The notes under the pieces were generated by a model. It made no database searches and was not told the origin of the DNA. It saw only the letters and a program-made list of their open reading frames with translations. A program made the position numbers and the translations under genes. Source: Vicinamibacteraceae bacterium (GTDB lineage: Bacteria > Planctomycetota > Phycisphaerae > Phycisphaerales > UBA5793). From it: a stretch of DNA of 64,000 nt. Shown piece after piece: positions 3,746 through 42,316 of the stretch. The stretch is from NCBI GenBank assembly GCA_011525805.1, contig WYBR01000042.1:1-64000 (forward strand), written 5' to 3'. Positions within the stretch are counted from its first letter, which is position 1, and each line of letters begins with the position of its first letter.

Positions 3746-3781
3746 CCTTACCTCGCGGCGAGCGCCGCGGCTGACGATCGA

Positions 3782-6259: not shown

Positions 6260-6303
6260 GCTAGTGTCTCCGAATGTGGGTCGTAAAGCCGTGATGCCGT
6301 CTC

Positions 6304-11308: not shown

Positions 11309-11317
11309 GGCTGCTCC

Positions 11318-12611: not shown

Positions 12612-12679
12612 AGCCGGCTCCTTGCTCAATCCGCAACACTTGTTCACCAGTAACACACCCGTCCGCAGCCTGCAATACT

Positions 12680-16006: not shown

Positions 16007-16077
16007 CGCAGGAGAGCCATCCAAAGAGACCGTCGGCTGCCGGAGTGTCGGCTTGCGTGTTGAGGAGACAGAGGAAG

Positions 16078-17703: not shown

Positions 17704-18465
17704 ATGATAATGCATCACCGCGGCCGCCGATTGACCGCAGGCTCAGGATCGCTCCTCGTCGCCCTGGCCTGCTCATCCACGTGTCTCGCCGGGCCGGAGC
17801 GGCTGCAACTGACCGATGCCTCCGCATGGGGCGGGTTCTTCAGCGGTGGCCCATACGAGGTGCGGCCGATCGACTTTGCCTTCGAGCCGGTCGGCTCGGG
17901 CGAGTTCGGCGCCGACGCCGGCCGCTTCATTACCTTCACTGTCGAGATGCTCGACGATCTCTGGGAAGGTCCGTTCCATTACGATGTCGCCTTCAGCGAC
18001 GACGCCCACGGCAACGGGGCCGGCGGCGGCGATCCCGATCCGCTCGACGAACGCACCGCCTTCCTCTACACCGTGTTCGCGCGCGGACAGATTGCGGGCA
18101 AACTCGCCTCCTTCGACGGCTCAATCTTCACGTACGAGCACTCCGCGTCCGGGCACGCGCTCCAGGAGGCGATCTGGCACATCGAGGAGGAGATCGGCCC
18201 CGTCGCCGGCCTGGCGGCGAGCCTCGTGGCGATGGCCGACGCGGCGGTGGGATTCGGCGGCGAGTGGTTCGGCATGGGTCTCGGCGCCGTGCGCGTGATG
18301 AACATGGCCGACGCGGGCGGGCACACGTACCAGGATCTGCTCGTCCTCGAGCCGACGATGATTCCCTTGCCGGCGCCGGTGTTCACGGGCGCCGTCGGCC
18401 TCGCGGGGGTGATCGCCCTCACCCTCCGCCGCCGGCGCGGCTGCGGCGATGATCAGCAGTTCTGA
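17704..18465 (+). CDS. Exosortase substrate with IPLPAP C-terminal sorting signal, 1
   Basis: 253 aa. An N-terminal signal peptide (SLLVALACSSTCLAG) leads to a secreted domain with PYEVRPIDFAFEPVGSGEFG and DPDPLDERTAFLYTVFARG. The protein ends with the three-part sorting tail: IPLPAPV motif, hydrophobic helix, and RRRRG. This tail fits the VPLPA/PEP-CTERM class that exosortases recognise. The body is clearly homologous to the substrate at 21899-22648 (both have F-x-P-I/IDF, DPDPLD-[ED]-[RK]-T, LQ-x-AIW-[HY]-IE). GGAAGAGAG precedes the ATG. It is the only substrate here on the + strand and probably shares a transcript with the FG-GAP gene. The mature product should be exported and retained or released after exosortase cleavage; its role is unknown. 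Confidence 0.85.
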   Translation: MIMHHRGRRLTAGSGSLLVALACSSTCLAGPERLQLTDASAWGGFFSGGPYEVRPIDFAFEPVGSGEFGADAGRFITFTVEMLDDLWEGPFHYDVAFSDDAHGNGAGGGDPDPLDERTAFLYTVFARGQIAGKLASFDGSIFTYEHSASGHALQEAIWHIEEEIGPVAGLAASLVAMADAAVGFGGEWFGMGLGAVRVMNMADAGGHTYQDLLVLEPTMIPLPAPVFTGAVGLAGVIALTLRRRRGCGDDQQF

Positions 18466-18690
18466 TGATGCCGGAGCGAGCGAGGCGGCGAGAGCGCGAC
18501 ACGGGCGATGCAGCGCCTCGCGCGATTCAGCGACGCGAGCAGATCAGCGAGCCGGACTGTGCGCAGTCCGGTGGGGCTCCGCCTCGCTTCGCGCACATCA
18601 CACGTGAACCTCGCGCAAGAGGCTCGCCACACACGGCATGACGCGCCTCCTCGGAGCGGGAACGCTCCGGCTCGCGGCGGCGCGACCGAA
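18466..18690. other. Convergent intergenic region
   Basis: Space between convergent units (17704-18465 on + and 18771-19526 on -). No gene is supported. It is rich in short CGCGA/TCGCG repeats, and at its right edge it carries the minus-strand terminator described separately. Confidence 0.4.
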
Positions 18691-18725
18691 AAAGAACAAC
18701 GACAAGGCGCGAGCCTTGTCGTTGT
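18691..18725 (-). terminator. Intrinsic terminator of the 18771-19526 gene
   Basis: A perfect 13-bp stem (ACAACGACAAGGC / GCCTTGTCGTTGT, 18696-18725) has a four-base loop and is followed on the minus strand by TTCTTTTTCGG. It lies about 45 bases after the stop of the minus-strand exosortase substrate gene. Confidence 0.85.
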
Positions 18726-18770
18726 GTGATTGATGCGGAAGTTCCGCCTCAGCGAACCGATCCGCGGGGA

Positions 18771-19526
18771 TCAGTCGAGGGAGGGAGCCGAGACCTTGCG
18801 CTTGCGCCGCGAGATGATCACGACCCCGGCGAGTCCAGCAAGGGCCAAGCCGAACGGCGCGGGGAGGGGGATGCTGTTGATGAAGCCCTCGCTCTCTCCG
18901 CCAAGCCCAATGGCCTGTACATGCAGGCCAAAGCGAAGGGAGATGTCGGGTCTGCCTCCCTCCGGGTTAGCCGTGTACTCCTGTCCCGCAGCGATCGCAG
19001 CGAGGACATCGGAATAGGTGTACTTGGCGCCGATCGGAAGATCTTTCAGATCGAAGATGATCTCCAGCCACTCTCCCGGGTTGATGCCATTGGCTTCGAT
19101 AGGGGGATCAGAATCTGCGGAAAAGTCGGCGGTCGCCTCGAAGTTCCCACCTCCGGGGAGGTTGCCAGGTGACGCCGGCTCGGTGAATGAGGTGCCGCTC
19201 CCGTTCACGATCTCGGCGATTCCCAGCAGCGTGCCGTCCTCAAAGTAGACGTCCGTGATGGAACTTGCGATCCAACCGAAGATCTCGTTGTTCAGGATCT
19301 TGAATGAGACCTGACCGATCAACTCTTCGGAAGGCGCAGATTCCCTGTAGTTGCGCACCTCAATGGTGAACTGACCCTCTGGATTCTCCGTTCCGTTCGC
19401 GGTAACGCGAGTAAATCCGTAGGTGTTACTCAGCGGCACGAAGTCCGCTTGAGCGGCGGTCGTCGCCACCGCGCCCGTCAGTGCCACTGCGATGACGCCG
19501 AGACGGTTGAGTTGCCTTCTGATCAT
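18771..19526 (-). CDS. Exosortase substrate with IPLPAP C-terminal sorting signal, 2
   Basis: 251 aa from the ATG at 19526, which is preceded by GGAGAGGTGATC; the in-frame extension to 19574 lacks support. A signal peptide (LGVIAVALTGAVATTAAQA) is followed by an acidic secreted domain (FVPLSNTYGFTRVTANGTE, then VSFKILNNEIFGWIASSI). The sorting tail reads SIPLPAPFG, a hydrophobic helix, then SRRKRK. The C-terminal residues after the basic cluster (VSAPSLD) are unusually long for this tail. The body is not obviously related to the other four substrates. It has its own transcription unit: a two-part promoter motif about 100 bases upstream matches the one in front of the polysaccharide operon, and a strong intrinsic terminator follows. 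Confidence 0.85.
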   Translation of the reverse strand: MIRRQLNRLGVIAVALTGAVATTAAQADFVPLSNTYGFTRVTANGTENPEGQFTIEVRNYRESAPSEELIGQVSFKILNNEIFGWIASSITDVYFEDGTLLGIAEIVNGSGTSFTEPASPGNLPGGGNFEATADFSADSDPPIEANGINPGEWLEIIFDLKDLPIGAKYTYSDVLAAIAAGQEYTANPEGGRPDISLRFGLHVQAIGLGGESEGFINSIPLPAPFGLALAGLAGVVIISRRKRKVSAPSLD

Positions 19527-19624
19527 GATCACCTCTCCCTTCGACCGGTCAGAGCCGACACTCCGAATCGCCACCCTCCACGCCGCAACGGCCGCAAGAA
19601 CTTGCCGCCGCCGCAGTGTGAGTT

Positions 19625-19653
19625 AGTTTACCTGCCCGGCGAATCGGGAGCAA
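19625..19653 (-). promoter_or_regulatory. Promoter-like element shared with the polysaccharide operon
   Basis: On the minus strand: TTGCTC, 17 bases, TAAACT. The wider motif CCCCCTTGC-N15-CAGGTAAACTA (19624-19658) is repeated with identical spacing at 53017-53051 upstream of the NusG-like gene. It would start transcription about 92 bases before the ATG at 19526. Confidence 0.6.
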
Positions 19654-19658
19654 GGGGG

Positions 19659-20150
19659 AAAGCACCAATTCTTGGAAAATCCTGCACATTCTGGCGATGG
19701 TTGGGATCCAGCCGCGTTCCTGCATGAAAAACGCGTATGGCGGGCGGAAAATCGTCCGATAACTGTGAGTACTCGATCCGCCCGCCGGCGGCACGCCTCC
19801 GACAAGGCGACGCCACTCCCGGCCGCTCGCTTGCTTCCGGCGGCCGGCCGCAGCGAGACTCCATGACCGGGAGCACCAGGGCAGCGCCATGCATGGATCG
19901 CCGGGGACCCGTCGCGAGTCAAGGCCGCCGGATGAGCGCCGCAGCGGACGACAAGGGGCCTCACCGGGGATGGCGAGAGTGGCCGCGTGTCCGGAAGCGA
20001 GCCGGGCCGTGGCGCTGGGTCGCCCGTCGCCCTCCGAGCGCCCGTGCCGAGCGATTGTCCGTGTCGCTTGTGGTATTGCCCCGCGGGACCGCCGCCAGCC
20101 GGTGGCACGCGCGGGCTGGCCCGCGAGAATCGGCAATCTACGCTGGGGAG
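19659..20150. other. Long intergenic region without a gene
   Basis: Nearly 500 bases between the promoter of the 19526 gene and the terminator of the 20222 gene. Frames here overlap on both strands, lack ribosome-binding sites and resemble no protein. No repeat or RNA gene was recognised. Confidence 0.4.
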
Positions 20151-20180
20151 AAAAACGACACAAGGCCCGAAGGCCCTGTG
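20151..20180 (-). terminator. Intrinsic terminator of the 20222-21034 gene
   Basis: A minus-strand hairpin with a 9-bp stem (one mismatch) and a UUCG tetraloop (stems 20159-20167 and 20172-20180) is followed by GTCGTTTTTCTCC. It lies about 40 bases after the stop codon. Confidence 0.8.
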
Positions 20181-20221
20181 GAGTTTGCGACGGTTGCGGC
20201 CGGGCGCTCCGCGGCAGCGCT

Positions 20222-21034
20222 TCAGCAGATTGGCGCATCGACGGCTGATGCCCGGCGTCGATTCCTCACCACCACAAGGCCGGCGAGGCCAAGTCCGACG
20301 CTCGCGAGCCAGACTGGCGCGGGGAGGGGGATCATCGTGAGTGTGTCCTGTCGGCCGAGAGAGTTCTCCCAGATATTAATGATGCGGACCTTGCCGATGC
20401 CGGTCCACAGGTTACCGTCGATCGCGGCGTTGACGTCGTCGTACCAGGCGCGAGCGAGGGCTTTGTGCGCCCCCGAACCCAGGAAGTAGCCGCCGCTGTC
20501 GAAGGCGCCAGTCCCGTATCGGGCCGCGAAGCCAGTGGGATCCTGGAAGTACCAGATGATCTCCTGGAGGGCTCGGGCGGAAGCGACCTTTGCCGAGTCG
20601 CTCGCGTTGGAATCGAAGTATTTGTAGCCGTCCAGCGTTCCTTCGGTGAACTTGGTATAGAGGTATGCGATCTCGGACGTGAGCACCTGATTGGTCGCTC
20701 GGGACCGCGTGTTCAGTTCGGCCGAGTACCAGCGGTTGAGTTGGATGAACTCGGTGGTCTCGACGCAGAAACTGATGAACTGGTCGGGGGCGGCGCCGTA
20801 CTTGCCCAAGCCGTGCGGCGTGAAGGAAAGGCGGCTGGCGTTAACGACGAACTCCCCGGCCACGGCGCCGCCGCCGACGACATTGAAGCGGCTGCGCAGA
20901 CCGTCCATGCGAATCTCGCCGACAGGGATTGGGTCCGCGGAGGCGGCGGAAACGGCCGTCAGAAACAGCAGCGTCGTCAGAGCATGACGCAGTGCCATCG
21001 ACCGATGTTTCGTGATGAGGTTCATGGCGGTCAT
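20222..21034 (-). CDS. Exosortase substrate with IPLPAP C-terminal sorting signal, 3
   Basis: 270 aa. A signal peptide (ALTTLLFLTAVSAASADP) precedes a secreted domain with ISFCVETTEFIQLNRWYSAEL and IAYLYTKFTEGTLDGY. Its ALQEIIWYFQDPTG segment corresponds to the LQ-x-AIW-Y-I segment of the substrates at 17704 and 21899, so the three form one family. The tail is MIPLPAPVW, a hydrophobic helix and RNRRR. The ATG at 21034 has no strong ribosome-binding site; MNLITKH, 9 bases in, is an alternative start. A weak promoter-like pair (TGGACA-N16-GATAGC) lies at 21115-21142. The gene ends in a UUCG-type terminator. Confidence 0.85.
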   Translation of the reverse strand: MTAMNLITKHRSMALRHALTTLLFLTAVSAASADPIPVGEIRMDGLRSRFNVVGGGAVAGEFVVNASRLSFTPHGLGKYGAAPDQFISFCVETTEFIQLNRWYSAELNTRSRATNQVLTSEIAYLYTKFTEGTLDGYKYFDSNASDSAKVASARALQEIIWYFQDPTGFAARYGTGAFDSGGYFLGSGAHKALARAWYDDVNAAIDGNLWTGIGKVRIINIWENSLGRQDTLTMIPLPAPVWLASVGLGLAGLVVVRNRRRASAVDAPIC

Positions 21035-21122
21035 TTCGATCCGATGCTCTCTCCAACGGGTCGGGCAATCACGGCCGCGGCCCGAGACCGTCCTGGGTGC
21101 GGCGCCATCCGTGCGCTATCAA

Positions 21123-21154
21123 GATGCAGGCCGGCGTGTCCACCGACCTGCATC
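21123..21154 (-). terminator. Hairpin after the 21235-21750 gene
   Basis: An 8-bp perfect inverted repeat (GATGCAGG / CCTGCATC) with a 16-base loop lies about 80 bases downstream of the minus-strand stop at 21235. No T tract is present. It could instead be part of the control region of the 21034 gene. Confidence 0.35.
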
Positions 21155-21234
21155 GGAATTCAAGTTGGTGCAGGGCTGGATGCGCGGTCCTTTCCGGGAT
21201 CAACCGCCCTTGCACACGTAGCGGACAGAGCCCT

Positions 21235-21750
21235 TCAGCGACGGCGCCGCATGGAGACGATCCCGGCCACGCCGAGCAGGCCGAAGCCTCCCATGGCCAG
21301 CGGGGCCGGAAGAGGAATCGTAAGCGGCTCCTGCAGCCCGGCGTCCACGTTCACCGTCGGCGCCGGCATGAAACGCACGCTCCAGCCGCCAAGAGCATCC
21401 TCGCCGGAGACCAGCGTCGACTCCAAGCCCTCGAAGTTGAACGCGTCGACGCTCACTTCTTCCGAGCCGTTGAGGGACATGCCCCCTCCCGCGATCCAGG
21501 CGATGCTCTGATGGAGCGAAGAAGCGTCGGTCGAGAGATTGAGGCTGTTCGACTGGGAAAATCCGGTCGCTTCATCCTGGCTGAACACGAATGCGACCAG
21601 ATGGTCTGCCTCGTTCTCAACGAGGAACTCTCCGCTGAAGAGGCTCTGCGGCGCCGTCGGCTGAATGCCGATGGAGCCGCCCAAAGCGGGAACGGCGAAG
21701 ACGCTGCCGGTCAAAGCGACTGCCACGAACACCGATCTGCGTACGTCCAT
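21235..21750 (-). CDS. Exosortase substrate with IPLPAP C-terminal sorting signal, 4
   Basis: 171 aa from the ATG at 21750, which has GGGAG eight bases upstream and opens directly into a signal peptide (SVFVAVALTGSVFAVPALGG). The longer frame to 21804 is unsupported. The mature domain is short and acidic (SLFSGEFLVENEADHLVAF, ... NGSEEVSVDAFNFEG), with no resemblance to the other substrates. The tail is TIPLPAPLA, hydrophobic helix and MRRRR at the extreme C-terminus. It is separated from the next upstream substrate by 148 bases that include a strong hairpin, so it may depend on read-through or on its own promoter, which I could not identify. Confidence 0.82.
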   Translation of the reverse strand: MDVRRSVFVAVALTGSVFAVPALGGSIGIQPTAPQSLFSGEFLVENEADHLVAFVFSQDEATGFSQSNSLNLSTDASSLHQSIAWIAGGGMSLNGSEEVSVDAFNFEGLESTLVSGEDALGGWSVRFMPAPTVNVDAGLQEPLTIPLPAPLAMGGFGLLGVAGIVSMRRRR

Positions 21751-21856
21751 ATGAAGTACTCCCTTCCTCCTGGCCACCCACGATGGTTGATTGCACTTGA
21801 GCATTCACTGCCGCACTCGCGGCCCCGATGAGGGAGGTGAAGCCCCCGGTTGGTTG

Positions 21857-21892
21857 CCGCGCCGGGGCATAGGCATCTCACCCCCGGCGCGG
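21857..21892 (-). terminator. Strong GC hairpin after the 21899-22648 gene
   Basis: A perfect 11-bp stem (CCGCGCCGGGG / CCCCGGCGCGG) with a 14-base loop begins seven bases after the stop codon at 21899. There is no T tract, so it may attenuate or stabilise rather than fully terminate. Confidence 0.55.
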
Positions 21893-21898
21893 AGAGAC

Positions 21899-22648
21899 TC
21901 AAAGTTCAAGAGGTTCGAGCGAATCCCGGCGAGCCGAACGGCGGCGGATGCAGAACCCGACGACGCCGCACAGCCCGATCCCCGCCATCCACACGGGCGC
22001 GGGGAGCGGGATCATGACGAGGAGATCCTGGCGATTGCCCGTGAAGTCCGCATTCGCCCACATGTTCATGACGCGAACGTTGCTCATGCCGGAGAAACTG
22101 GCGCCCGTGCCGCCACCGACCGCCCAAGAAGCCAGCTGGGCCAGGTAGTTGTTGGCTCCGCCGGACTCCTGCTCGATGTACCAGATCGCCCGCTGAAGAT
22201 CTTCACCGGAGGTAAACGTGCCATACGTGAAGGTGCCACCGGAGCCGCCGTCGCCGACCCACGCGGCCAGTTCGGCCCCGATGGTGCCCTTGATGAAGTG
22301 GGCGTAGAGGTACCGGGTCTTGTCATCGAGCGGGTCAGGGTCCGGACCTCCGGACCCGCCGGCGCGCGCTTCATCGCTGAACTGGATGTAGTACTCTCCG
22401 CCCTCGCCCAGGAACTCATCCGTTTCCACGCAGAAGGTGACGAAGTTGCCCGGCCCCGCGCCATACAGGCCCAAGCCGATCGGAGCGGTGCCGAATCCGA
22501 TTGGCGTGACCCCAAACGGTCCGCCATTGCCCCCGATTCCCCAGAGGTCGGTCTCTACGACCTTGATCTTTTCGCCCGCAGCCAGCGAGGTCGCTGTTGC
22601 CGCCAAGGCCAAGGCCGCCGTGACGAGACTCAGTTTCCCAACCTTCAT
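21899..22648 (-). CDS. Exosortase substrate with IPLPAP C-terminal sorting signal, 5
   Basis: 249 aa. The ATG has GGAGG seven bases upstream. A signal peptide (LVTAALALAATATSLAAG) is followed by a glycine-rich secreted domain (PFGVTPIGFGTAPIGLGLYG, DPDPLDDKTRYLYAHFIKG, LQRAIWYIEQE) homologous to the + strand substrate at 17704 and more distantly to 20222. The tail is MIPLPAPVW, a hydrophobic helix containing two cysteines, then RRRSARR and a further acidic LEPLEL end. A canonical-looking promoter lies about 270 bases upstream, giving a long 5' leader. The protein should be exported and processed by the exosortase at 32028. Confidence 0.87.
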   Translation of the reverse strand: MKVGKLSLVTAALALAATATSLAAGEKIKVVETDLWGIGGNGGPFGVTPIGFGTAPIGLGLYGAGPGNFVTFCVETDEFLGEGGEYYIQFSDEARAGGSGGPDPDPLDDKTRYLYAHFIKGTIGAELAAWVGDGGSGGTFTYGTFTSGEDLQRAIWYIEQESGGANNYLAQLASWAVGGGTGASFSGMSNVRVMNMWANADFTGNRQDLLVMIPLPAPVWMAGIGLCGVVGFCIRRRSARRDSLEPLEL

Positions 22649-22915
22649 GTTTCATCCTCCGTTCGTTGGATCGTCCACGACCTGCAAATCACCGGGGCTG
22701 CGACGGGCCACCGGCGGTGTGCGGTCAAGGCACAGCGCTGCGTCCAGTCCGTCATCCAAGGCGCCCACGTTTCTTTTTCTCTCACTCGGTGCCGACTCCC
22801 GAGGGGTGGTCGGCAGATCTCATCTCTCTTCAACCGATCCGATCACCTCGACCCGTCCACGGACCGTCCCAGGAGACTCAGGCGAGCCCCCTGAGAAAGG
22901 GGTCGAGTGCAGGGT
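22649..22915. other. Long 5' leader of the 21899-22648 gene
   Basis: About 260 bases between the candidate promoter and the start codon. No ORF with a ribosome-binding site is seen. A small G/C hairpin (CCCC / GGGG around 22887-22902) lies near the expected transcript start. The leader is long enough for post-transcriptional control, but I see no known riboswitch. Confidence 0.35.
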
Positions 22916-22944
22916 AGTATCCCCGACGGTCAAACTCTTGTCAA
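22916..22944 (-). promoter_or_regulatory. Sigma-70-type promoter for the 21899-22648 gene
   Basis: On the minus strand: TTGACA (22939-22944), 17 bases, GATACT (22916-22921). The surrounding bases keep the same geometry as the motif at 19624 and 53017 (CCTTG before and ACTA after, with a 15-base core spacing), but with mismatches. Confidence 0.6.
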
Positions 22945-23242
22945 GGCCCAACCCGACGAAATCCAACAAAACGTGAAAAAAAAGTTGAGCGTTGACTGCG
23001 ACCAGGGGCAGCCGCGTGGTTCCGGGTCGGCTCCGCCCGTTGTCCGCGAGAAACTGGGCAATTCGACCGCTCTTTCCTCGCGTTTTTCGCGGTTTATGGG
23101 AGGGATCGAGCCGCGACGGTTTCGGATTGGTTGTTGGCAGATTGCGCTCATGTCTGGGCAGAGGTCTCTGGCAAGACCCTGCGATCGACCTCTCGTGGGG
23201 GATAACGGGGTCCGTTTGTGGATAACTACCGCCGCCGCCATG
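22945..23242. other. Intergenic region at the 3' end of the polysaccharide operon
   Basis: About 300 bases, including an unusually A-rich run (AAAACGTGAAAAAAAAG, 22969-22985). On the minus strand this reads as a T8 tract, but without an adjacent stem that I can see. No gene. Confidence 0.35.
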
Positions 23243-26200
23243 TCATGGGGACCCCGCCAGGGCCTCGCTGACCGCGGAGAAGCGACGGGCGAGGTGGACG
23301 CTGTCGAGGTCGATCTCGCCGTTGGCCAGGGCGGCTTGAAGTTCGGCCTTCGCCTCGCTCTTGCGCTCCAGGCCGATGAGGGCGTGAGCGCGGCCGAGGC
23401 GGAGCAGCGTGCTGTCGGGCGTGAGGGTCAGGCCCTCTGCGAAGGCCCTTTCCGCTTCGGCGAATCGCACAACCGCGATCAGGGCTGAGCCGAGCGTTTC
23501 GAGCAGGTTGGCCTGGATGGTGGGGGGGAAGCGCAGCCGTTTTGCCTCCTCGACCGCTCGAGACGCGAGCAGCACCGGCTCTTCGCTCGGAGTGTCGCCG
23601 CTGAGCAGAACGAATGCGAGGTTGTTGAGGGCGAAGGGGTTGGCCGGCTCACGTTCGAGGGCCAGGCGATACGCAGCCTCGGCGCGGTCGCGCCGGCCGA
23701 CCTGTTCGAGCGCCTCGGCGACCATCATGATCGCATCGATGCTGACTTCCGGATCGTGCATCACCGGCTCGACCAGTGCGATCGCACGTTCGAACTGCTC
23801 CGACTGACGAAGTTCATGGCCGAGGCCATAGCGCACGCCGGCGATCTCGGCTCGCGTCGCAGCCGAAAGCGCCACGAGAGGTTCGATTCGATCAATCCAC
23901 GCGAGGCGGTCTTGGGGCGAATCGATCTGTCCGGCGAGGAGCATGTAGGCTCGTGCCCATTCTCCGCCCTGCTGCGCGCGGCTCCACAGCAGGCTGTGGG
24001 CGGCCTCGTGGCGCGCCGTGCGCACGAGAATCGAGGAGAAGAGTTCGAGACGGCCCGGGAAGTCCTCGGCCTCGCGTTCGAGACGATCGGCGTAGGGGAC
24101 AAGGGTCGCATACGCGCGGTCGGGGCGGCCTGTTTCGCGATCGATCTGGGCGAGGAGGAGGTCCGGGCGGAGACGGTCGCTGACTTCGAGTTCGCGCCAG
24201 CGAGCCGCCGCGGCGCGGGCTTCTTCGAATCGTCGGACCTGTGCCAGGGTGGCGGCGACGAGTTCGGCCGCGCGCACTGAGGCCGGGAGGATGCGGGCCG
24301 CGTTCTGGGCCGCGGTCACCGCCTCGTCGGGGCGGGAATCGCCGAGCAGGGCATTGACGAGCAGTTGCCAGCCGACGAGCAGTTGCGGCTGGCCATCCAC
24401 CACCTTGCGCAGGCGCGCGATGTACTCCGCAGGATCGTTGGGATTGGCGTTGATGAACTCGATGGCCTGCGCGATCTGCCGCATCGCCGGCCGTGCGCTT
24501 TCGGCCACCATCGTGTCGATCACGCTTTCCATGACAGCGGGATCGAGCGTGTCGGTGTCGAGCACTTCAGCGACTCCGCGAAGTGTGGAGAGGATTTCGT
24601 GCTGCGGGGCGATCGCCAGGCCGCGGCTGACCGCCTCGCGCGCCTCGGTGCTGCTCCTGTGGCGGATATGGAACTGAGCGAGGGCGGCCCAGTGATCCGG
24701 GTCGCCGGACTGCTCCGCCCGATTCCGGTAGATCGCGGCCGCCTCGTCGATGAGGCTGAGGCGTTCGTGGAAGGCGGCGAGCAGCACGGTGAAGGCGTCG
24801 GCGTCCACGGTGTCGCGCAGGCGATCAAGCACCGAAAGGCCGCGCTCGAGCGACTCAGTCGTCGCGTAGAAGTGGGCCGCCGCAGAACACACCGACCCAT
24901 CCACTTCGGGCAGCGCGAGAAGGCGATCGAACAGGCGCCGGGCGTCGGCGTTGCGGCCGCGCTGGGCATAGAGCCGGGCCAGAGCGAGTTGATCGCCGAC
25001 CTCTCCGGTCGATGCCGCGAGATCCTCGGCGTCGCGGATCGCCTCTGTCCACATGGCCTGCCGCTGAAGCAACTCGATGCGCTGCCGTCTCATGCCGGGA
25101 GCGAGGTTGGCCAGGTTGGCGAATTCGCGCAGACGCTGGGCCGCCTCGGCCGATCGCCCCGATTCCTGCATGAGACGGATCATCTGGATGTAGAGCAGCG
25201 CATTGTCGGGTTGGCGGTCCGCGGCCCGGCCGAGCATCGTGATCGCCCCGTTGCGATCCTGCAATCGCAGGAGCGCATCGGAAGTGAGCATCAGCGCCTT
25301 GACGTTCTGGATCGGGGGTTGAATGAGCGGGGCGAGAAGGACGACAACCTGCGCGGCGACATCCTCAGTCGGCTCGAAGGCCAGGCGGCGCTGCGCTTCC
25401 GCGAGACGCCACTGCGTCGCCTGTTCGCCCGTCGCTTCGCGGAGGCGCCCGATGGCGGTGGCGATCGCTTCCGGGTCGTTCCACGCCACGCGCGAGTCGA
25501 GCAGGGCCTGCTGCGCGGCCGGACTGGAGGGGTAGGCGGCGCTGAGTCGCTTGTACTCGGCCAGCGCGCCGGCATCGCCGCCGCGTTCGAGGGCACGGGC
25601 GTAGGCGATCTCGTAAACGATCCTGCGGTCCGCATCCGTCTCCTTCTCTGCGGCCTCGAGGTACATGGTGCGCACTGCTTCCGGATCGGTCTCGAACGTC
25701 CTTTCGGTCAGCAGCGCCAGCAGGTCGGGTCCCGGCGCCTCGATCGAGGAGGCAATCTCGAGCAGCGGATCGACCAGGGCGGGCGCCTTGCGACGGCAAG
25801 CGGTGATCAGGTCCAAAAGCGGCGGCGACGAGGGCGGGCGAGGCGCGGCCACGAGGCGGTCCACGGCGCTTCGCGCCTCGTCCATGAGGTCGGCGGCGAG
25901 ATAGACCCGCGCGAGGATGGCGATGACATCGGGTTCGTCGGGCAGCATCGTCGCCACTTCCTCGAGGATCGCCACCGCCTGTTGGGCGATGGTGCGATCG
26001 CCCCGACCCGCGTCGAGAAGGGCGGCGTAAGTGCGGGCGAGCGTCAGGGCTTCGGGCGCGGCGGGATTGAGGACGAGGGCCCGCTCCGCGGCGGCGCGCG
26101 CCTCGGTCAGCCGGCCCTGCTCCAGTTGCATCGCCGCCAGCATCATCTGTGATCGCGACCAGGTGGGATCGTGAATGACGGCCTGCTCGAGACAGGAGAC

Positions 26201-27418
26201 GGCGAGGTCGGGTTCGCCGAGGCGCTGCGACACTTCCCCGAGCCAGCTCCACGCCAGGCTGCTGGCGTCGTCAATCCCGATGACTTCGCTGAGGCGTTTG
26301 CGCGCCTCGGCGTGGTCCTGCCGCACCATCTCGGTGCGGGCCCTGAGGAGGATTTCCCAGCGTACAGCGTCTTCATCGCCGCGCGCCGCGAGTTCCCGCC
26401 CTTGCTCGGATTGCGACCACTCGCCGCCCTCGGGCAATGAGAGGAGAATCTTCCAGCCGAGCAGGCTGCTGGGCGTCGCCGCCGCGTCGCGCCCGGTTTG
26501 GTCGAGATACGTTCGCGCGCGATCCTCGTGCCCGAGCTTCCACGCTCTCTCGATGATCGACAGCAGCACTTCGTCGTGCAGGTCTTCATTGCCGATCGTG
26601 CGGTCGAGGAGCGCATCGGCGTCGGAGCGCATGCCGAGCATGTCGAGAGTCCGGACGATGTCCAGGAGCGCCTCGGAGTCGGGGATCTCAATGGAGAGGA
26701 GGCGGGCTGCGGCCTGGCGAGCCTCATCGCGCCGCCCGTAGACGCTGTTGAGCCTCGCCTGCATGGTGACGAAACCGATGTGATCGGGAGCGCTGGCGGC
26801 GAGTTCGTCAACGTAGGCGAGCACCTCGTCCGCGCTAACACCCTCCAGCCTCATCATCTCGATCTTCATCTCGTGACCGCGGACATCCCTGGGATGCGCG
26901 GCGATAAGCGCATCGACCGCGGCGCTCGCCTCGGCGTTGCGGCCGAGGGTGGCGAGGCACTCGACGCGCGCGGTGTGTCCTTCCAGACTCGTCGGGTCGA
27001 GGGCCAGCAGGCGGTCTGCGGCGTCGAGTCGCTCGGTGATGAAGCCCACCTGCCGGAAGAGGGTCACGAGCAGTTCGAGGGGGCGGGAGTCGCGGCCGTC
27101 GAGTGAGGCCGCCTCGCGGGCGAAAGCGATGGCGGAAATCAGGTGTCGATTGTTCTCGGCGGGTACGCGGCGACGCACGTCGGCCAGGCGGAAGAGCACC
27201 TCGGGATCGCCGCGATGCTCGCTGAGGGACTTGCCCAGCCCGCGCAGCGAATCCTCCCAGCGCCCCTCGTCGTAGGCGGCCATGCCGTCGCGATACGCCT
27301 CCGCCGCACGCTGTGCGCGGCGCGCTTCGCGCACGACATACGCGCCGCCGGCGGCCGTGCCGAGCAGTGCGATGAGAGACAGAAGGATGAGCAGTCGCTT
27401 CTTTCCGCGTCGGGTCAT
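23243..27418 (-). CDS. Very large TPR-repeat membrane-anchored protein of the exosortase/polysaccharide locus
   Basis: 1391 aa. A basic N-terminus and one membrane helix (LLILLSLIALLGTAAGGAYVV) with no lipobox cysteine anchor it. Nearly all the rest is alpha-helical tetratricopeptide repeats with the A-x-x-x-Y/F...P pattern (AYRDGMAAYDEGRWEDSL; AEAAYRLALEREPANPFALN; AERAFAEGLTLTPDSTLLRL), about 30 or more in total. Exosortase loci often carry a large TPR protein of PrsT type. This one fits by position and architecture but is longer and is not a lipoprotein. It probably lies outside the inner membrane and scaffolds assembly or export of the polymer. It is the last gene of the operon, 171 bases after the sugar transferase gene. 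Confidence 0.85.
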   Translation of the reverse strand: MTRRGKKRLLILLSLIALLGTAAGGAYVVREARRAQRAAEAYRDGMAAYDEGRWEDSLRGLGKSLSEHRGDPEVLFRLADVRRRVPAENNRHLISAIAFAREAASLDGRDSRPLELLVTLFRQVGFITERLDAADRLLALDPTSLEGHTARVECLATLGRNAEASAAVDALIAAHPRDVRGHEMKIEMMRLEGVSADEVLAYVDELAASAPDHIGFVTMQARLNSVYGRRDEARQAAARLLSIEIPDSEALLDIVRTLDMLGMRSDADALLDRTIGNEDLHDEVLLSIIERAWKLGHEDRARTYLDQTGRDAAATPSSLLGWKILLSLPEGGEWSQSEQGRELAARGDEDAVRWEILLRARTEMVRQDHAEARKRLSEVIGIDDASSLAWSWLGEVSQRLGEPDLAVSCLEQAVIHDPTWSRSQMMLAAMQLEQGRLTEARAAAERALVLNPAAPEALTLARTYAALLDAGRGDRTIAQQAVAILEEVATMLPDEPDVIAILARVYLAADLMDEARSAVDRLVAAPRPPSSPPLLDLITACRRKAPALVDPLLEIASSIEAPGPDLLALLTERTFETDPEAVRTMYLEAAEKETDADRRIVYEIAYARALERGGDAGALAEYKRLSAAYPSSPAAQQALLDSRVAWNDPEAIATAIGRLREATGEQATQWRLAEAQRRLAFEPTEDVAAQVVVLLAPLIQPPIQNVKALMLTSDALLRLQDRNGAITMLGRAADRQPDNALLYIQMIRLMQESGRSAEAAQRLREFANLANLAPGMRRQRIELLQRQAMWTEAIRDAEDLAASTGEVGDQLALARLYAQRGRNADARRLFDRLLALPEVDGSVCSAAAHFYATTESLERGLSVLDRLRDTVDADAFTVLLAAFHERLSLIDEAAAIYRNRAEQSGDPDHWAALAQFHIRHRSSTEAREAVSRGLAIAPQHEILSTLRGVAEVLDTDTLDPAVMESVIDTMVAESARPAMRQIAQAIEFINANPNDPAEYIARLRKVVDGQPQLLVGWQLLVNALLGDSRPDEAVTAAQNAARILPASVRAAELVAATLAQVRRFEEARAAAARWRELEVSDRLRPDLLLAQIDRETGRPDRAYATLVPYADRLEREAEDFPGRLELFSSILVRTARHEAAHSLLWSRAQQGGEWARAYMLLAGQIDSPQDRLAWIDRIEPLVALSAATRAEIAGVRYGLGHELRQSEQFERAIALVEPVMHDPEVSIDAIMMVAEALEQVGRRDRAEAAYRLALEREPANPFALNNLAFVLLSGDTPSEEPVLLASRAVEEAKRLRFPPTIQANLLETLGSALIAVVRFAEAERAFAEGLTLTPDSTLLRLGRAHALIGLERKSEAKAELQAALANGEIDLDSVHLARRFSAVSEALAGSP

Positions 27419-27589
27419 GGGATGCTCCCGATTGTGATTACGAACGCCGCGCCCTCATGGAAGCGATGCGGTTCGCGGGGACGCATGAGGGCTTGGGCCT
27501 GGGGTATGAAGGCTGGTCGATAGCCCGCGGCGGCAGCCGCAGGTTGATGCCCGTCGTGCGACCGCGCGCTTCGAAACCGGCGCGTCGTC

Positions 27590-29065
27590 TCAGACCAGCA
27601 TCTTGCGGATCGTCTGTGCGATGATCCACAGATCGAGCCGCCAGTTCTGGTTCTGCACGTATTCGAGGTCGTAGCGGATCCACTCCTGAAAGTCGTTCTC
27701 GGGCCGGCGTGTTCGCCGGACCTGCCAGAGACCGGTCACCCCGGGGCGGACGCTCAGGCGCGCCTCGCGCCACGTGGGGCAGAACTGGTTCTCTCTGTCC
27801 GGGCTGGGGCGCGGACCGACGACGCTCATGTGCCCGAGAAGAACGTTCCAGAACTGCGGCAACTCGTCGAGGTGATACTTGCGAAGAATGCGCCCGACCT
27901 TCAACACGCGCGGGTCATCATCGATGTGGAACTGCGGGCCATCGCAGATGTTCGCGCCGGCGACCTGCGCCTTCATTGCCTCGGCGTTGCGGCACATTGT
28001 TCGGAACTTGTAGCATGGGAACTCACGCCCGCCGATGGTCTGACGCCGGTGGACAAAGAACGGCGGCCAGCCATCCTCGATCACGATCACCGCGATCACG
28101 ACGGGGTAGATGATCGCCGTACCCAGCAGCGCCGCCGCCGCGAAGGCGATGTCAAAGAGCCGTTTGCCCGGGCGCGAAAGCGCCGCCGCCTCGCCATGCG
28201 CGAATCGGCTGCGCGAGGCGAAGCGAATGTACTCCCAGTCAATCGGCCGCGTTGCGACCTCGCTGCCCGGCTGATCGGCCACGCCTCCCGGTCCGACGAC
28301 GACGCTGGCCGCGCCAATCTCGGCGCCGGCCCCGATCCAGAGCGGCGCGATGAGCCGCGCCGACGGCGCCACCCGCGCCGACTCGTGCACCCACACGCCC
28401 AGGCTGAACTCGTATACGCCGTCGAGCGTTGCGCCGGGTCGATGCCAGATCCGCTGGAGGACGAGAAGAAACTGATCAACCTGCGCCGCTGAAGCGGACG
28501 CCTTGAAGAGGCGAGCCGCGGCCGTCGCGGGGATCACTGCGCCGTGCTGAAGGATCGACTTGATGCGCTTGCGCGCCGCCGCCGTGTCCCGGCTCTGCGC
28601 CCAGGCCCAGGCCGCCTTCGCGTCCGCCGTCAGCCAGGCCTGGAGCGTCGCCCGCGAGCGGCCGTGATAGCGCCGGCTGATTCGCTTCAGTCGGTCATGC
28701 TCGTCCGTTTCGACGACTTCGAGATAGGGCTGGGGCTCCTGCTCGACGAGCCGCAACCTCATCGCGCCGGGCTTGAGCCAGCCGAAGCGGTCCAGGAGCG
28801 GCGCGAGGCGGAAGAGGACGAGGTCATCATCGCCGAGCAGGAGGTAGAAGTCGGCGCGGTGCCGCCGGCCGACGCGCCGGCGCATCCCTCGGATGCTCTC
28901 CGGCGTGGGTTTGTCCTCGGGCAGCATCCCCGGACGCACGACCTGCACGCCGCGACTCGCCCAGAAGCGGTCGTGCAGCGCCTTGTGGTCCAGGCCCCAG
29001 AAGGACGGGAGCGCCGGAACGGCCTTCGGCTCGCTCCGCTCAAGGTGTTCAGTCAGAAGGGTCAC
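27590..29065 (-). CDS. Initiating sugar-phosphate transferase with unusual N-terminal hexapeptide region
   Basis: 491 aa. The C-terminal 195 residues are a bacterial sugar transferase domain that loads the first sugar phosphate onto the lipid carrier: KRLFDIAFAAAALLG helix, PPFFVHRRQTIGGREFPCYKFRTM, ILRKYHLDELPQFWNVL, MSVVGPRPSP and RPGVTGLWQV. The N-terminal half is not the usual multi-helix membrane domain of such enzymes. It starts with a soluble alpha/beta-like region (FYLLLGDDDLVLFRL) and then has hexapeptide-type turns (VHESARVAPSARLIAPLWIG, AEIGAASVVVG), suggesting a left-handed beta-helix. It resembles a nucleotidyl- or acyltransferase-like piece fused to the transferase. Its start overlaps the preceding gene by four bases. 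Confidence 0.88.
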   Translation of the reverse strand: MTLLTEHLERSEPKAVPALPSFWGLDHKALHDRFWASRGVQVVRPGMLPEDKPTPESIRGMRRRVGRRHRADFYLLLGDDDLVLFRLAPLLDRFGWLKPGAMRLRLVEQEPQPYLEVVETDEHDRLKRISRRYHGRSRATLQAWLTADAKAAWAWAQSRDTAAARKRIKSILQHGAVIPATAAARLFKASASAAQVDQFLLVLQRIWHRPGATLDGVYEFSLGVWVHESARVAPSARLIAPLWIGAGAEIGAASVVVGPGGVADQPGSEVATRPIDWEYIRFASRSRFAHGEAAALSRPGKRLFDIAFAAAALLGTAIIYPVVIAVIVIEDGWPPFFVHRRQTIGGREFPCYKFRTMCRNAEAMKAQVAGANICDGPQFHIDDDPRVLKVGRILRKYHLDELPQFWNVLLGHMSVVGPRPSPDRENQFCPTWREARLSVRPGVTGLWQVRRTRRPENDFQEWIRYDLEYVQNQNWRLDLWIIAQTIRKMLV

Positions 29066-31338
29066 GTATCAGATTCGGTCGGAGTCGAATCGCCTCCGCC
29101 CGATTTCCCGCTCATCAAAATGGCGCGCACGAGCGCGTGGCGCGACTCGACGGCCGACTCGGTCTCTTTCGTCCCGGCGGTTCTCATGCTCTGCGAGTGG
29201 AAGGAGACGGTACTCATGCTGCTGCGCAGGTCGCCGGCTGTGGCGCGATTGAACACGAGCCCGGCGCAGACGGCGCCGATCGAGTGCAGCCGCCCCAGCG
29301 CCGCGCGCACGAGGCGCGGATCCTGCCCGCGCGGAACGGTCAGAACGATGCGGTCCGCCACCGTCGCGACGACGTTGGCTTCGAGACTGCCCATCAGCGG
29401 ACCCGTGTCGATCAGGATAATGTCGAAGCGTCGCCGCGCCTCTTCCATCACCTTGAGCATGGTGTCGGCGGAGAGGTGCTCGGCCTCATAGGAGCCGTTG
29501 CGGCTCGCGCCGTGTCGAGTCGAGGTTCCTGCCGGGAGCACCCAGAAGCCGCTGAAGCGCGACTCGCACACCGCCCCTTCGAGCGCTGCGCCTTGTGCCA
29601 CCTGACGCAGCCCATCGCGTTCCTGGAATCCCATGCTCGACGAAAGTCCGTGTCCGACGAGATCGGCGTCGATCACGAGCGTGCGCGCACCCTGCGCGGC
29701 GAAGGACATTCCCAGCGCCACGGTGAGGCTCGTTTTGCCGTCGCCCGGCCGCGCGCTGGTGATCACAAACGCCGTTCCCCCGTCGCGCCGCGGCCGCGCC
29801 TGCATCGAGAGCATGTTGCGCAGGTGGTGGACGCTCAACGACGCGAGTGAATCGAGGTCTTCGGCGCGGCTGGTCAGGTCGGGCAGCGTGCCGAGAACGG
29901 GCACGATCGTCTCCGCCTCTTCAATCTCGTCGAGGTACCGGTAACTCGGCTTGAGCAGCCCGACGAGCAGAACCAGACCGACGCCCAGGCCCGCGCCGGC
30001 CAGCCCGCCGAGCACCGCCAGTTGGAACCGCCGGTCGCGAGACGGTCCTGAAGGCAAATCGCCGTAGATGGGGTCGACCCGTCCCTGCTGGATGTTCTGC
30101 CGCTCGACGTTCTGCTGTTCGAGAGCGAGAACCGTCTCGGCGAGGCTCGCTCTCGTTCGCTCCTCCTCGACCCTGAGTTCGTCAATGGTCCGGCGCGTGG
30201 CGCGGATTTCAGCGACTTCCTGCCTCTTCGCCTCGAGGTCCGCGGTAAGCCTGGTCAGCAGCGCCTTGGCTTGTGGAAGCGTCGTGTCCGGGGGAAGGGC
30301 CGGATCGCCCGTTGTGCCGCGCGATTCGATCCACTCGCGGATCTGCGCAGCGCGGGACGTGATGCGGGTCTCCAGGATGCGCCGATCCTCCTCGAGGCGC
30401 CGCGTCTGCACATGCCGCGGGCCGAATCGTCGCGCCGTTTCGATCTCCGCATCCAGCGCTTGCCGTTCCGCGAGAAGATCCTTCAGTTCGGCATCGAGCG
30501 TGGCAAGGTACTCGACGGTCAGGTCCGGCGGGGACGCCTCGGACGCGCCGCCTTGCTCATCCACCGGCGGCGGCTCAATCGACGCAATGGTGTAGATCAC
30601 TTCCCTGATCTGGCGCTCGAGGTCGAACATCTCGCTGAGCCTGGCCTCAAGAAGCGGATCAAGCTCGTCGGTCACAAAGCGCGCACTCAGGTTCAGAATG
30701 CTACTCCGCTTCGCAGCGGCTTCATTCTCGAGAGTCGCACGCCTCGTTTGGAGTTCGCTGATGCGCTCGTTGTACCTCGCGATTCCCTGCTCGCCGTACA
30801 ACGTGTGATACGCACGCAGCACCGCGTTGACCGCCTTCTGCGCCTGCGTGGGGTCGTCGCACGTCGCCTCGATCGAGATGACCTGCGATCCGCGCCGGTA
30901 CTTGACCGAAATCGCCTGCTTGAGTCGGCTGATTCCCCGGGGACGCGGCTCCCATCCGGCCGCGACCAGTTCTGCATCCTCCACGGCGACCTCAAAGACG
31001 CGCGGCGCTTCAATCAGCGCCGCCTGCGTTGCCACGAAGTTCTCGAACATCGGTGGAATCTGGTTCTCATCCGTCTGGTAGAGGGTCCGCGGGATGGTGG
31101 GGCGCACCTGAAGGAGCGCTTCGCTGGTGTATTGCGGTCCGGCGAGCATGAACCCCGACACCCCGCCGATCACCGCCAGCACCAGTCCGAGCGCGATCGC
31201 CATTGCGTATCGCCCCCGCAGGTGTCGGTGCAGAAGCGCCAGCGCTCCCACCTGCCCCGATTCCGCCGGCGCCTCGGGCCGACCGGGCGGGCCCGTCACC
31301 GTCACCCGGTGCACCTGCATCTGGTTCTCGACATTCAT
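29062..31338 (-). CDS. Wzz-type chain-length protein fused to BY-kinase-like ATPase
   Basis: 758 aa. The N-terminal Wzz domain has a first membrane helix near residue 45-70 (AMAIALGLVLAVIGGVSGFML), a long coiled periplasmic region, and a second helix (LAVLGGLAGAGLGVGLVLLVG). The cytosolic C-terminal ATPase shows Walker A (SARPGDGKTSL), a Walker A'-like box (LVIDADL) and Walker B (IILIDTGPL). Together these control polymer length and export. The C-terminal tail (SRHALVRAILMSGKSGGG..TESDT) contains no tyrosine cluster, so the autophosphorylation seen in classical BY-kinases is unlikely. Four-base overlaps link it to EpsI upstream and to the sugar transferase downstream. Confidence 0.88.
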   Translation of the reverse strand: MNVENQMQVHRVTVTGPPGRPEAPAESGQVGALALLHRHLRGRYAMAIALGLVLAVIGGVSGFMLAGPQYTSEALLQVRPTIPRTLYQTDENQIPPMFENFVATQAALIEAPRVFEVAVEDAELVAAGWEPRPRGISRLKQAISVKYRRGSQVISIEATCDDPTQAQKAVNAVLRAYHTLYGEQGIARYNERISELQTRRATLENEAAAKRSSILNLSARFVTDELDPLLEARLSEMFDLERQIREVIYTIASIEPPPVDEQGGASEASPPDLTVEYLATLDAELKDLLAERQALDAEIETARRFGPRHVQTRRLEEDRRILETRITSRAAQIREWIESRGTTGDPALPPDTTLPQAKALLTRLTADLEAKRQEVAEIRATRRTIDELRVEEERTRASLAETVLALEQQNVERQNIQQGRVDPIYGDLPSGPSRDRRFQLAVLGGLAGAGLGVGLVLLVGLLKPSYRYLDEIEEAETIVPVLGTLPDLTSRAEDLDSLASLSVHHLRNMLSMQARPRRDGGTAFVITSARPGDGKTSLTVALGMSFAAQGARTLVIDADLVGHGLSSSMGFQERDGLRQVAQGAALEGAVCESRFSGFWVLPAGTSTRHGASRNGSYEAEHLSADTMLKVMEEARRRFDIILIDTGPLMGSLEANVVATVADRIVLTVPRGQDPRLVRAALGRLHSIGAVCAGLVFNRATAGDLRSSMSTVSFHSQSMRTAGTKETESAVESRHALVRAILMSGKSGGGDSTPTESDT

Positions 31339-32021
31339 GGCACGCCCTTTCCAATGGTGTCGATCACCGGCTGAATCGCCCCGAGTATCTTGGCCACCAT
31401 CTCATCCGTGGCTGCGTCCGACTGGGCCAAAGGAGTCACGATCTGGACCTGCGCCGCGCCGAGCGCGGCCAGGCCCCGCCGCTTCAACTCCCGTTCCATC
31501 GCATACATGTCGCCGATCACTTCATCCGTGCCCGGCGCAATGAAGAAACTAATAATGCGGATCGCTTCGCGCGACCCGCTGTTGAGACGCGAGAAGTCAT
31601 AGAAGATCGCCTCCTGGTCGGCTCCTGAAAGTGTGATCGCCTGCGCCCGTCGGGACTCGAGATGCCAACCGTGCGCCGGATAGCACACCGGCGGATGATG
31701 GCCAAGCATGTCGCGGATGTCGGTGCAGTGAATGATCGACAGGCTTACCTTGTTGCCCCCGAGCGGATCGTGGTAGGTCCGCCGGAGCACCTTGTTGGGT
31801 CGCAGCATCCGGACCGCCACCTCGGTAAGCGGCAGGTTGACGCCCACCCACGAATCGATCTGATACGGCACGCCTTCGATCGACGTTGCTACGTCGTCAA
31901 AGTAACGGTCCGCTCCGGCCGGCGCCGTCTGCCCCAGCCCGCCGGACAAAAAGAGCGCGGCGAGCACCGCCAGCGTAAGCCCGGGCACCACAATCCGCCG
32001 GTAGCCGTCGCTCAATCTCAC
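31335..32021 (-). CDS. epsI: EpsI-family exosortase-associated protein
   Basis: 228 aa. A basic N-terminus and one hydrophobic segment (IVVPGLTLAVLAALFLSGGLG) place the domain on the outer face of the cytoplasmic membrane. The EpsI signature is clear: YHDPLGGNKVSLSIIHC, then GHHPPVCYPAHGWHLES, with the His-x-Pro-x-x-Cys box. The C-terminal half (IRIISFFIAPGTDEVIGDMYAM) completes the usual 200-230 residue domain. EpsI proteins accompany exosortases, sometimes as a C-terminal fusion; here it is a separate gene six bases after the exosortase stop. Its exact role is not settled in the family. It probably assists cleavage or export of tagged proteins or polymer. Confidence 0.88.
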   Translation of the reverse strand: MRLSDGYRRIVVPGLTLAVLAALFLSGGLGQTAPAGADRYFDDVATSIEGVPYQIDSWVGVNLPLTEVAVRMLRPNKVLRRTYHDPLGGNKVSLSIIHCTDIRDMLGHHPPVCYPAHGWHLESRRAQAITLSGADQEAIFYDFSRLNSGSREAIRIISFFIAPGTDEVIGDMYAMERELKRRGLAALGAAQVQIVTPLAQSDAATDEMVAKILGAIQPVIDTIGKGVP

Positions 32022-32027
32022 GTCAGT

Positions 32028-32900
32028 TCACTCCTCGTCTCCCACGGGGTGCGGCGAGACGGGAATCTCCAGCCAGCGCAGCACCGAGAACATCATCCAG
32101 AGAATCCCCAGCGCCACGAACAACATCACCCAGCCGCTCGCCTCGTGAAACGCATCGGCCGCGGCCACGTTCCCATAGCCGTAGAACAGCACCGTCGGCA
32201 CCAGCCGTATCACATTGACAAGCAGAGCGATCAGCGGACTGACGGCAAGGAACATCAGGCGAATGCTGTGGCGCATTGGAACCGAAAAGACGAAGGCAAA
32301 CGTGATGAGCGCCAGGGCCGTGACCATCCGCATGCCGTTGCACGCCTCGGCCACGGCCACGTCGTTGCCGTTGATGCTCAGTACGTTTCCAAGGCGCTCG
32401 ACTGGTACGCTGATGATGTCGAGCAGGTAGTGCGTCACCGCGGCCGTCGCCTCCTGAAGGGGCAGCGCCACCGCCTGGCGAATCCGCCCCGGCACCGGCA
32501 GCACGAACAGCAGCGCGATCGCCGCCGGCAGAAACAACCGGACGACGCGCGGCCCGAGCATCGTCAGCGCCGCCCCGAAAACGATCAGCAGCGCTCCGCC
32601 GTGCTCGGCGATCATGATCTCGCTCTGATAGCCGACCTTTGCCGCAATCCAGCCAACCCCCACCACAAACGGTCCGATGAGACTCACCTGCGGCCGCGCA
32701 AACCGCAACCGCTCGCGCCGCACCCACACCAGCCAGGCCGCAACGAACGGCGCGAGAATCAAGTGGGAGTTTTCATCGTCGCGAAGGCCGATCGCGAGCA
32801 TGTCCTGCCACAACTCGATCGTCACACCGACCGCAGTCAGCGTCAGCACGCCCAGCCACAACCCGTCGGCAAAGTCCCATGTTCGACGCAGCGTGGTCAT
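32028..32900 (-). CDS. Exosortase (transmembrane transpeptidase-like protease)
   Basis: 290 aa with about eight membrane helices. The catalytic triad of the exosortase/archaeosortase family is present: Cys187 in AVAEACNGMRM, Arg232 in VNVIRLVP, His252 in AFHEASGW. It would cleave the IPLPAP-type tails of the five secreted proteins at 17.7-22.6 kb during surface delivery. The invariant segment before the cysteine reads EACNGMR, where many family members have EACSG(I/L)R. The gene is embedded in the polysaccharide operon between a degenerate nucleotidyltransferase (four-base overlap) and EpsI, the standard context. I cannot assign an Xrt subtype by reading alone. Confidence 0.92.
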   Translation of the reverse strand: MTTLRRTWDFADGLWLGVLTLTAVGVTIELWQDMLAIGLRDDENSHLILAPFVAAWLVWVRRERLRFARPQVSLIGPFVVGVGWIAAKVGYQSEIMIAEHGGALLIVFGAALTMLGPRVVRLFLPAAIALLFVLPVPGRIRQAVALPLQEATAAVTHYLLDIISVPVERLGNVLSINGNDVAVAEACNGMRMVTALALITFAFVFSVPMRHSIRLMFLAVSPLIALLVNVIRLVPTVLFYGYGNVAAADAFHEASGWVMLFVALGILWMMFSVLRWLEIPVSPHPVGDEE

Positions 32901-37201: not shown

Positions 37202-37354
37202 TTCCACGTCGTGCTCAATTGCCGCCTGCGTCACAAACTCCAATACCTCCCAACCACACGGAACGAACCGGCCTCGACACTGGCACAATGATCACCGCGG
37301 ACCGTTGACGCAACCGTCAGGCCGCTCACTGAACCTCGGTCGTGTCGGAGCGCA

Positions 37355-38001: not shown

Positions 38002-38007
38002 GTGGCG

Positions 38008-39342: not shown

Positions 39343-39343
39343 C

Positions 39344-39985: not shown

Positions 39986-40039
39986 GTCACACTCTGAGTA
40001 GTGCGTCGAAGTGTCTTTTATCGATTCGTTGTGCGTATG

Positions 40040-42297: not shown

Positions 42298-42316
42298 GCG
42301 TTCACAATGCGAAAAG

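Follow-up and report, generated by a model that had tools for sequence, protein, structure and literature searches.

A planctomycete exosortase locus with its own class of sorting tails and predicted thioester-domain substrates

We have analyzed a bacterial locus in which an exosortase gene lies beside five genes whose products end in a shared IPLPAP tail. The locus belongs to a planctomycete genome of 4.54 Mb (assembly GCA_011525805.1, code G000 in our genome set), and the window, by which we mean the whole stretch of DNA analyzed, is positions 1-64,000 of contig WYBR01000042.1. This analysis supports the view that the five tails are a coherent class confined to the exosortase locus, and three of the five bodies are predicted to be thioester-domain (TED) proteins. 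The genes concerned are listed here; in the text each substrate is referred to by its first coordinate.

17704..18465, + strand: IPLPAP-tailed protein of predicted thioester-domain type, without the thioester Cys (motif codons 18361-18378)
18771..19574, - strand: IPLPAP-tailed protein, body of an unnamed family (motif codons 18855-18872)
20222..21034, - strand: IPLPAP-tailed predicted thioester-domain protein, from AlphaFold2 fold and motifs (motif codons 20315-20332)
21235..21804, - strand: short IPLPAP-tailed protein, family in two congeners (motif codons 21301-21318)
21899..22648, - strand: IPLPAP-tailed predicted thioester-domain protein, from AlphaFold2 fold and motifs (motif codons 21995-22012)
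23243..27418, - strand: large PrsT-like TPR protein (TIGR02917 162 bits, cut-off 312)
27590..29065, - strand: polyprenyl-phosphate sugar transferase (PF02397)
29062..31338, - strand: chain-length determinant / tyrosine autokinase (Wzz-Wzc type)
31335..32021, - strand: EpsI-like exosortase partner (PF11984; TIGR02914 39.7 bits, cut-off 42.8)
32028..32900, - strand: exosortase (PF09721 167 bits; TIGR02602 131.8 bits, cut-off 105.55)
33901..48869, - strand: exopolysaccharide genes (UDP-glucose dehydrogenase type, glycosyltransferases, flippase type (PF13440), pyruvyl transferase)

All five open reading frames (ORFs) lie where the initial annotation had placed them, and by inspection each starts with a signal-like stretch at the N-terminus and ends in an IPLPAP motif followed by a hydrophobic helix and an Arg/Lys cluster. 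The statement that only 17704, 20222 and 21899 are related in body also holds, the latter two sharing 29% and 46% identity with 17704. The layout had been described correctly as one exosortase with adjoining substrates, but 17704 is on the strand opposite to the other four. 18771 is listed with a GTG start, but translation more probably begins at the ATG of residue 17. The genome-wide tail search proposed in the initial annotation was run with a degenerate DNA pattern for [VIM]-P-[LF]-P-A-P over the whole genome and gave seven places, five of which are the window tails. Neither of the remaining two is a C-terminal tail: L008 is a short frame without a helix and L009 lies in the N-terminal part of a long ORF. 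IPLPAP tails were thus found only in the enzyme's own locus.

The genome has 14 other C-terminal tails on ten contigs, mostly P-A-P-G-S-L-A-L-L-G, and none of the 14 contains Pro-Leu-Pro (PLP). These were collected at E <= 10, where five further matches are not tails and three of the five window tails are among the matches listed. PF07589 matches four of the five window tails weakly (E 0.027-0.065), and none of the five reaches the cut-off of PF07589 or TIGR02595, so that we file them as PEP-CTERM-like and not as PEP-CTERM. The VPLPA tail model TIGR03370 also stays below its cut-off throughout the locus (best 15.3 against 25.35 bits). Contig C137 carries VPEP tails, and contamination was considered on that account; its composition is not clearly foreign, and we make no such claim.

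The exosortase passes the eight-transmembrane EpsH profile (TIGR02602), and no model of a named exosortase subtype scores over its cut-off. Membership of XrtA was rejected (TIGR03109 124.4 bits, cut-off 208), as was membership of XrtD / VPLPA-CTERM (TIGR04152 111 bits, cut-off 400, with the TIGR03370 tail score already given), while the EpsI partner has a match to the C-terminal portion of that XrtD model (E 3.9e-6). Cys187, Arg214, Arg232 and His252 of the exosortase are invariant in an alignment of 11 sequences that includes a second exosortase of the same genome. The check on whether the window exosortase is the only one therefore came out negative: a different enzyme of 628 aa with a fused EpsI-like part is encoded in a parallel locus on contig C77 (C77:1-16000, L010), where a 1616-aa protein occupies the TPR position and one of 752 aa the kinase position, both named by position only. 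With this second exosortase and the 14 other tails, there are two enzymes in the genome and also two classes of tail, of which one is clustered and the other scattered; the C77 enzyme probably serves the scattered PAPGSLALLG tails. That the IPLPAP tails are plain membrane anchors which are never cleaved is very unlikely, given that a short conserved motif adjoins an exosortase with intact Cys, Arg and His inside an exopolysaccharide locus, the arrangement described as classical in passages of an earlier study (PMC1569441).

In the relevant passages of two published studies (PMC4450167; PMC6194298), thioester domains are defined by three ordered motifs, and the bond joins a Cys in the first motif to a Gln in the third. 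The alignment of the window family shows three sites in that order: FC[VIL]E, QxxIW and QDxL, the last directly before the tail. Of 102 whole-domain proteins, all keep the C-terminal Gln as well as the central Gln and Trp, and 99 keep the Cys, the exceptions being a Thr in 17704, an Ala in a relative from genome G009, and one gap. The bond-forming motif [YFL]C-hydrophobic-polar is present in 20222 and in 21899. In 20222 the predicted pair is Cys90 (codon 20765-20767) and Gln229 (codon 20348-20350) and in 21899 Cys73 (codon 22430-22432) and Gln207 (codon 22028-22030); each Cys is the single one in its mature domain. Within the three conserved motifs, the Thr of the TQxx-hydrophobic-W helix is replaced by a mostly hydrophobic residue, and the hydrophobic residue before the C-terminal Gln, a weak published motif, is Arg or Tyr in the window.

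For the AlphaFold2 models of 21899 (pLDDT 81.7) and 20222 (pLDDT 83.9), only sequences from the window and the named loci were used. The top eight structural matches of the 21899 model are all TEDs (Z 6.6-8.3, root-mean-square deviation 3.2-4.5, 122-153 residues aligned), with the next match at Z 2.2; the top nine of the 20222 model are likewise all TEDs (Z 7.7-10.4, root-mean-square deviation 3.4-4.6, 144-163 aligned), with the next at Z 2.4. These matches span the full length of both models, a beta-barrel with inserted helices, and Foldseek ranks TEDs first and second for both. Sequence searches were less telling. The Pfam TED model matches 11 of 23 aligned members weakly (best E 0.0011), where any other Pfam family hits one member at most; an NCBIfam scan of the 23 gave no meaningful family. 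The PF08341 cut-off is passed by relatives in three of 392 genomes, one of them in G017 (contig C1), at the same place as the match of the family profile. Searches of plasmid sequences for outside relatives of two TED proteins gave one chance match (E 1) and none. A profile of the family against the sequences of solved structures found only two chance matches (E 0.32-0.33); the relation to TEDs is visible by fold and not by sequence. On computed fold and motifs we assign the related bodies 17704, 20222 and 21899 to the thioester-domain proteins, 17704 only as a relative lacking the Cys.

Judged by its sequence, 17704 is a Cys-less paralogue that keeps the other motifs, with Thr79 (codon 17938-17940) in place of the Cys and Gln210 (codon 18331-18333) retained. 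Its closest relative, the G009 congener protein (68% identity), has the Ala noted above. As the thioester Cys is absent from both, neither should form a thioester and both would be non-reactive. That 17704 instead forms an ester bond between Thr and Gln is not favoured, in view of the Ala of the G009 protein. These two proteins, with the other motifs kept and the Cys gone, fit the notion of a TED fold that forms no thioester and in which Cys and Gln are structural. We consider this rather unlikely for the family, because in a group that diverges widely the Cys and the C-terminal Gln rank with the best conserved positions, and they are the bond-forming residues of published TEDs, as the passages cited describe them (PMC4450167, PMC6194298). 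The idea that PepA, a flocculation-associated PEP-CTERM protein (NF033554), is a thioester protein was also examined. The model gave weak matches in five of ten proteins scanned (best 5e-7), and the idea was rejected because NF033554 picks up ordinary tails in many genomes (106 of 382, always below the cut-off) and because the best near-full-length PepA-like protein, L261, has no TED motif.

Some exosortase match at E <= 1e-10 is found in 258 of 301 genomes of the order Phycisphaerales. With a cut of E <= 3e-42, which drops second-kind exosortases and fragments (e.g. in G296, G084 and G003), the window kind of exosortase occurs at 124 places in 121 of the 301. Its named relatives are from Phycisphaerales, other Planctomycetota and two Hydrogenedentota. 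Among 49 named loci that have an exosortase of 40% identity or more and downstream sequence of 9.9 kb or longer, 22 have a PLP-tailed protein downstream; such a protein lies upstream in none of the 43 named loci having equal upstream length, and in none of seven loci with more distant exosortases. The window's own substrates begin 9.4 kb from the exosortase, and flanks of ten kilobases therefore underestimate the frequency of tails; in regions with at least 15 kb downstream, 23 of 34 have a tailed protein and 18 of 34 a PLP tail. Among strong TED places in the 301 genomes (those weaker than E 2e-19 being excluded), 54 of 82 are within 35 kb of the exosortase, and 47 of the 54 are downstream at 7.4-16.8 kb. 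The initial annotation had set this locus apart from the usual scattering of substrates; they do lie beside the enzyme, but the layout is not unique and recurs among relatives of the exosortase. Downstream of the exosortase of L072 (G022) are six consecutive tailed proteins whose motifs are of IPTP/VPTP/VPAP type and not PLP, from which we take it that the tail motif drifts among relatives of this exosortase. PLP-tailed thioester-domain genes also occur off the exosortase's contig, in clusters of up to five (L201, L202, L240, L241 and L243).

TED proteins are present in 113 of the 301 genomes. Seventy of these genomes are among the 121 with the exosortase (p 3.6e-9), and for strong TED matches the figure is 39 of 43 (p 1.4e-13). 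Tail type and enzyme coincide: 74 of 84 TED proteins have PLP tails where the genome has the exosortase, against 0 of 18 where it does not (p 2.9e-13; none of these p-values is corrected for phylogeny). Counting only proteins fetched for their TED match gives 47 of 57 against 0 of 18, and counting by genome gives 35 of 42 against 0 of 18. Tails were read in 42 genomes with the exosortase and in 18 of the 43 TED genomes without it (20 were fetched), and 11 partial TED proteins were dropped from the tail count. TED tails in exosortase-less genomes are mostly P-[AT]-P-G-S-L-A-L-L-G-like. Where the tail is PLP, it follows the predicted thioester Gln closely, by five residues in 59 of 74 proteins, as does the IPLPAP motif of 21899, and by at most nine in 73 of 74. 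The change of tail with the presence of the exosortase, here called the tail switch, is a natural pairing of one exosortase subtype with one sorting motif. The proposed private signal is [IV]PLP plus helix plus basic cluster, in the form IPLPAP in this genus. The initial annotation had allowed that another exosortase subtype might fit the tails better; the co-occurrence of tail and enzyme favours this one.

The two remaining bodies had been called unrelated to known families. No Pfam or NCBIfam model matches the body of 18771 or 21235, but relatives of both exist. Those of 21235 are in two congeners (phmmer E 1.9e-9 and 1.6e-8), and the 18771 family is in 17 of 201 genomes of the order, its own genome counted. 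Tails of the latter family are PLP in G004, G009, G019, G032, G049 and G057 and P[AT]PGALA in the exosortase-less G039 and G185; most members follow the same rule as the TED proteins, with exceptions in G046, G173 and G024. These results bear on the proposal that there is no specificity, with both exosortases processing both tail classes and IPLPAP clustering arising only from local gene duplication. Duplication could account for the three related bodies, and the tails do have the general PEP-CTERM layout, with their weak PF07589 matches. This proposal seems to us decidedly improbable, however, as two unrelated bodies carry the same tail, the TED has one tail type or another according to whether this exosortase is present, also at places outside the locus, and the 18771 family shows the same trend.

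Several observations weigh against a pairing of this exosortase with PLP-tailed TED cargo. Other tails are found on 10 of the 84 TED proteins in exosortase-bearing genomes, and 51 of the 121 exosortase genomes have no TED at E <= 1e-5; TED proteins are thus not the sole cargo. No tail was found in 11 of the 34 related loci with at least 15 kb downstream. The congener G024 has no matching exosortase in its assembly, yet has an IPLPAP-tailed relative of 18771 (L247 / L258, contig C52). This gene is at a contig end (C52 ends ~600 bases on), so the exosortase locus may be missing from the assembly. As to the fold, Foldseek E-values are weak when taken alone (best 0.1 for 21899 and 0.016 for 20222), and no window protein matches Pfam TED (PF08341) at E <= 0.1. 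Finally, the genomes are related and the p-values ignore phylogeny, so tail type and exosortase might co-vary through common descent only and not through recognition. We give this little credence, since the tails contrast within genus g80, where G166 without exosortase has VPAPGALALLG and G118, G261 and G299 with exosortase have PLP, and within family f1, where G014 has VPSPASGM and G000, G004, G009 and G019 have PLP.

Outside the locus proper, an FG-GAP_2 repeat protein with seven repeats (window 15889-17637, + strand) adjoins 17704 on the same strand. Two tandem pairs of extracytoplasmic function (ECF) sigma factor and Ser-Thr kinase genes (8237-15665, - strand) adjoin the substrate cluster. 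Farther out, three tandem beta-propeller-repeat (SBBP) proteins (1121-8175, - strand) have a common conserved C-terminus (..GPAACGGHLQLLDL..CA.SN...), perhaps a further C-terminal signal or domain that has so far gone unrecognised. Beyond the polysaccharide genes, integrase-like and DUF3987 genes (55183-59201, + strand) suggest a mobile element.

We regard it as likely that the locus is a self-contained exosortase/exopolysaccharide system with private-signal substrates, the main one a TED protein, and that it works as follows. The substrates would be exported by their Sec signal peptides and held in the inner membrane by the tail helix. The exosortase and its EpsI partner would recognise PLP, cut at or near it, and transfer the proteins to an acceptor in the envelope or on the polysaccharide, so that their final residence would be the exopolysaccharide that the adjacent genes produce. 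In 20222 and 21899, Cys90 or Cys73 and the Gln five residues before IPLPAP would form an internal thioester, which could bond covalently to amines or hydroxyls and so fasten matrix, cell or neighbour. The tails, their confinement to the locus, their co-occurrence with the enzyme and the TED fold and motifs come from computation, and cleavage, acceptor, thioester formation and cross-linking we infer. Covalent fixing of the matrix would be the role of the TED, in preference to long-range adhesion. With the Gln five residues before PLP in most PLP-tailed proteins, the predicted reactive bond adjoins the sorting site, unlike that of stalked Gram-positive adhesins. More tentatively, and with less than even confidence, these proteins may be two-ended covalent cross-linkers of the matrix: the exosortase would join the C-terminus to polysaccharide or lipid, the thioester would be shielded at the membrane until processing and then bond to amines or hydroxyls on the matrix or on a neighbouring surface, and the Cys-less copy would be a non-reactive spacer.

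PEP-CTERM/exosortase systems (EpsH, XrtA) are known, for example, from floc formation in Zoogloea and Aquincola. They share with this locus the eight-transmembrane exosortase, EpsI, a PrsT-like TPR protein, exopolysaccharide genes, and surface proteins with a signal peptide and tripartite tail. The present locus differs in its private PLP motif, in substrates adjoining the enzyme, in having no named Xrt subtype over cut-off and in a cargo with a predicted reactive bond. XrtD / VPLPA-CTERM has the nearest named motif and its model the C-terminal likeness to the window EpsI partner, but the window EpsI gene is separate and both tail and enzyme models stay below cut-off. Gram-positive TED/TIE adhesins (SfbI, Cpa, PnTIE, CpTIE, BaTIE) have the same fold as the two models over the whole domain and the same FC-hydrophobic-polar, QxxIW central-helix and C-terminal Q-polar-x-hydrophobic motifs. 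They are anchored by LPXTG and sortase, whereas here the host is a planctomycete, the predicted TED is C-terminal, there is no stalk and the predicted anchoring is of exosortase type. A published search placed TEDs exclusively in Gram-positive bacteria, according to passages of that study (PMC4450167). In the open-access literature we found no paper linking thioester domains with PEP-CTERM and none on internal thioester surface proteins in planctomycetes; a survey of isopeptide bonds mentions both a thioester domain and exosortase, in passages that do not join them.

Exosortases and thioester domains are both known, and it is their combination and the tail switch that appear new. Since the tail differs according to whether a genome has the exosortase, the switch can serve as a natural experiment, and it makes available a named motif and an enzyme together with soluble domains of small size; thioester-domain cargo would give the system a concrete, testable chemistry. 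If the two-ended cross-linkers were real, thioester domains would have a covalent use outside pathogens, and this in bacteria that possess an outer membrane. A covalent adhesin fold, as predicted in three tagged proteins, suggests a chemical route by which such bacteria may glue their surface matrix.

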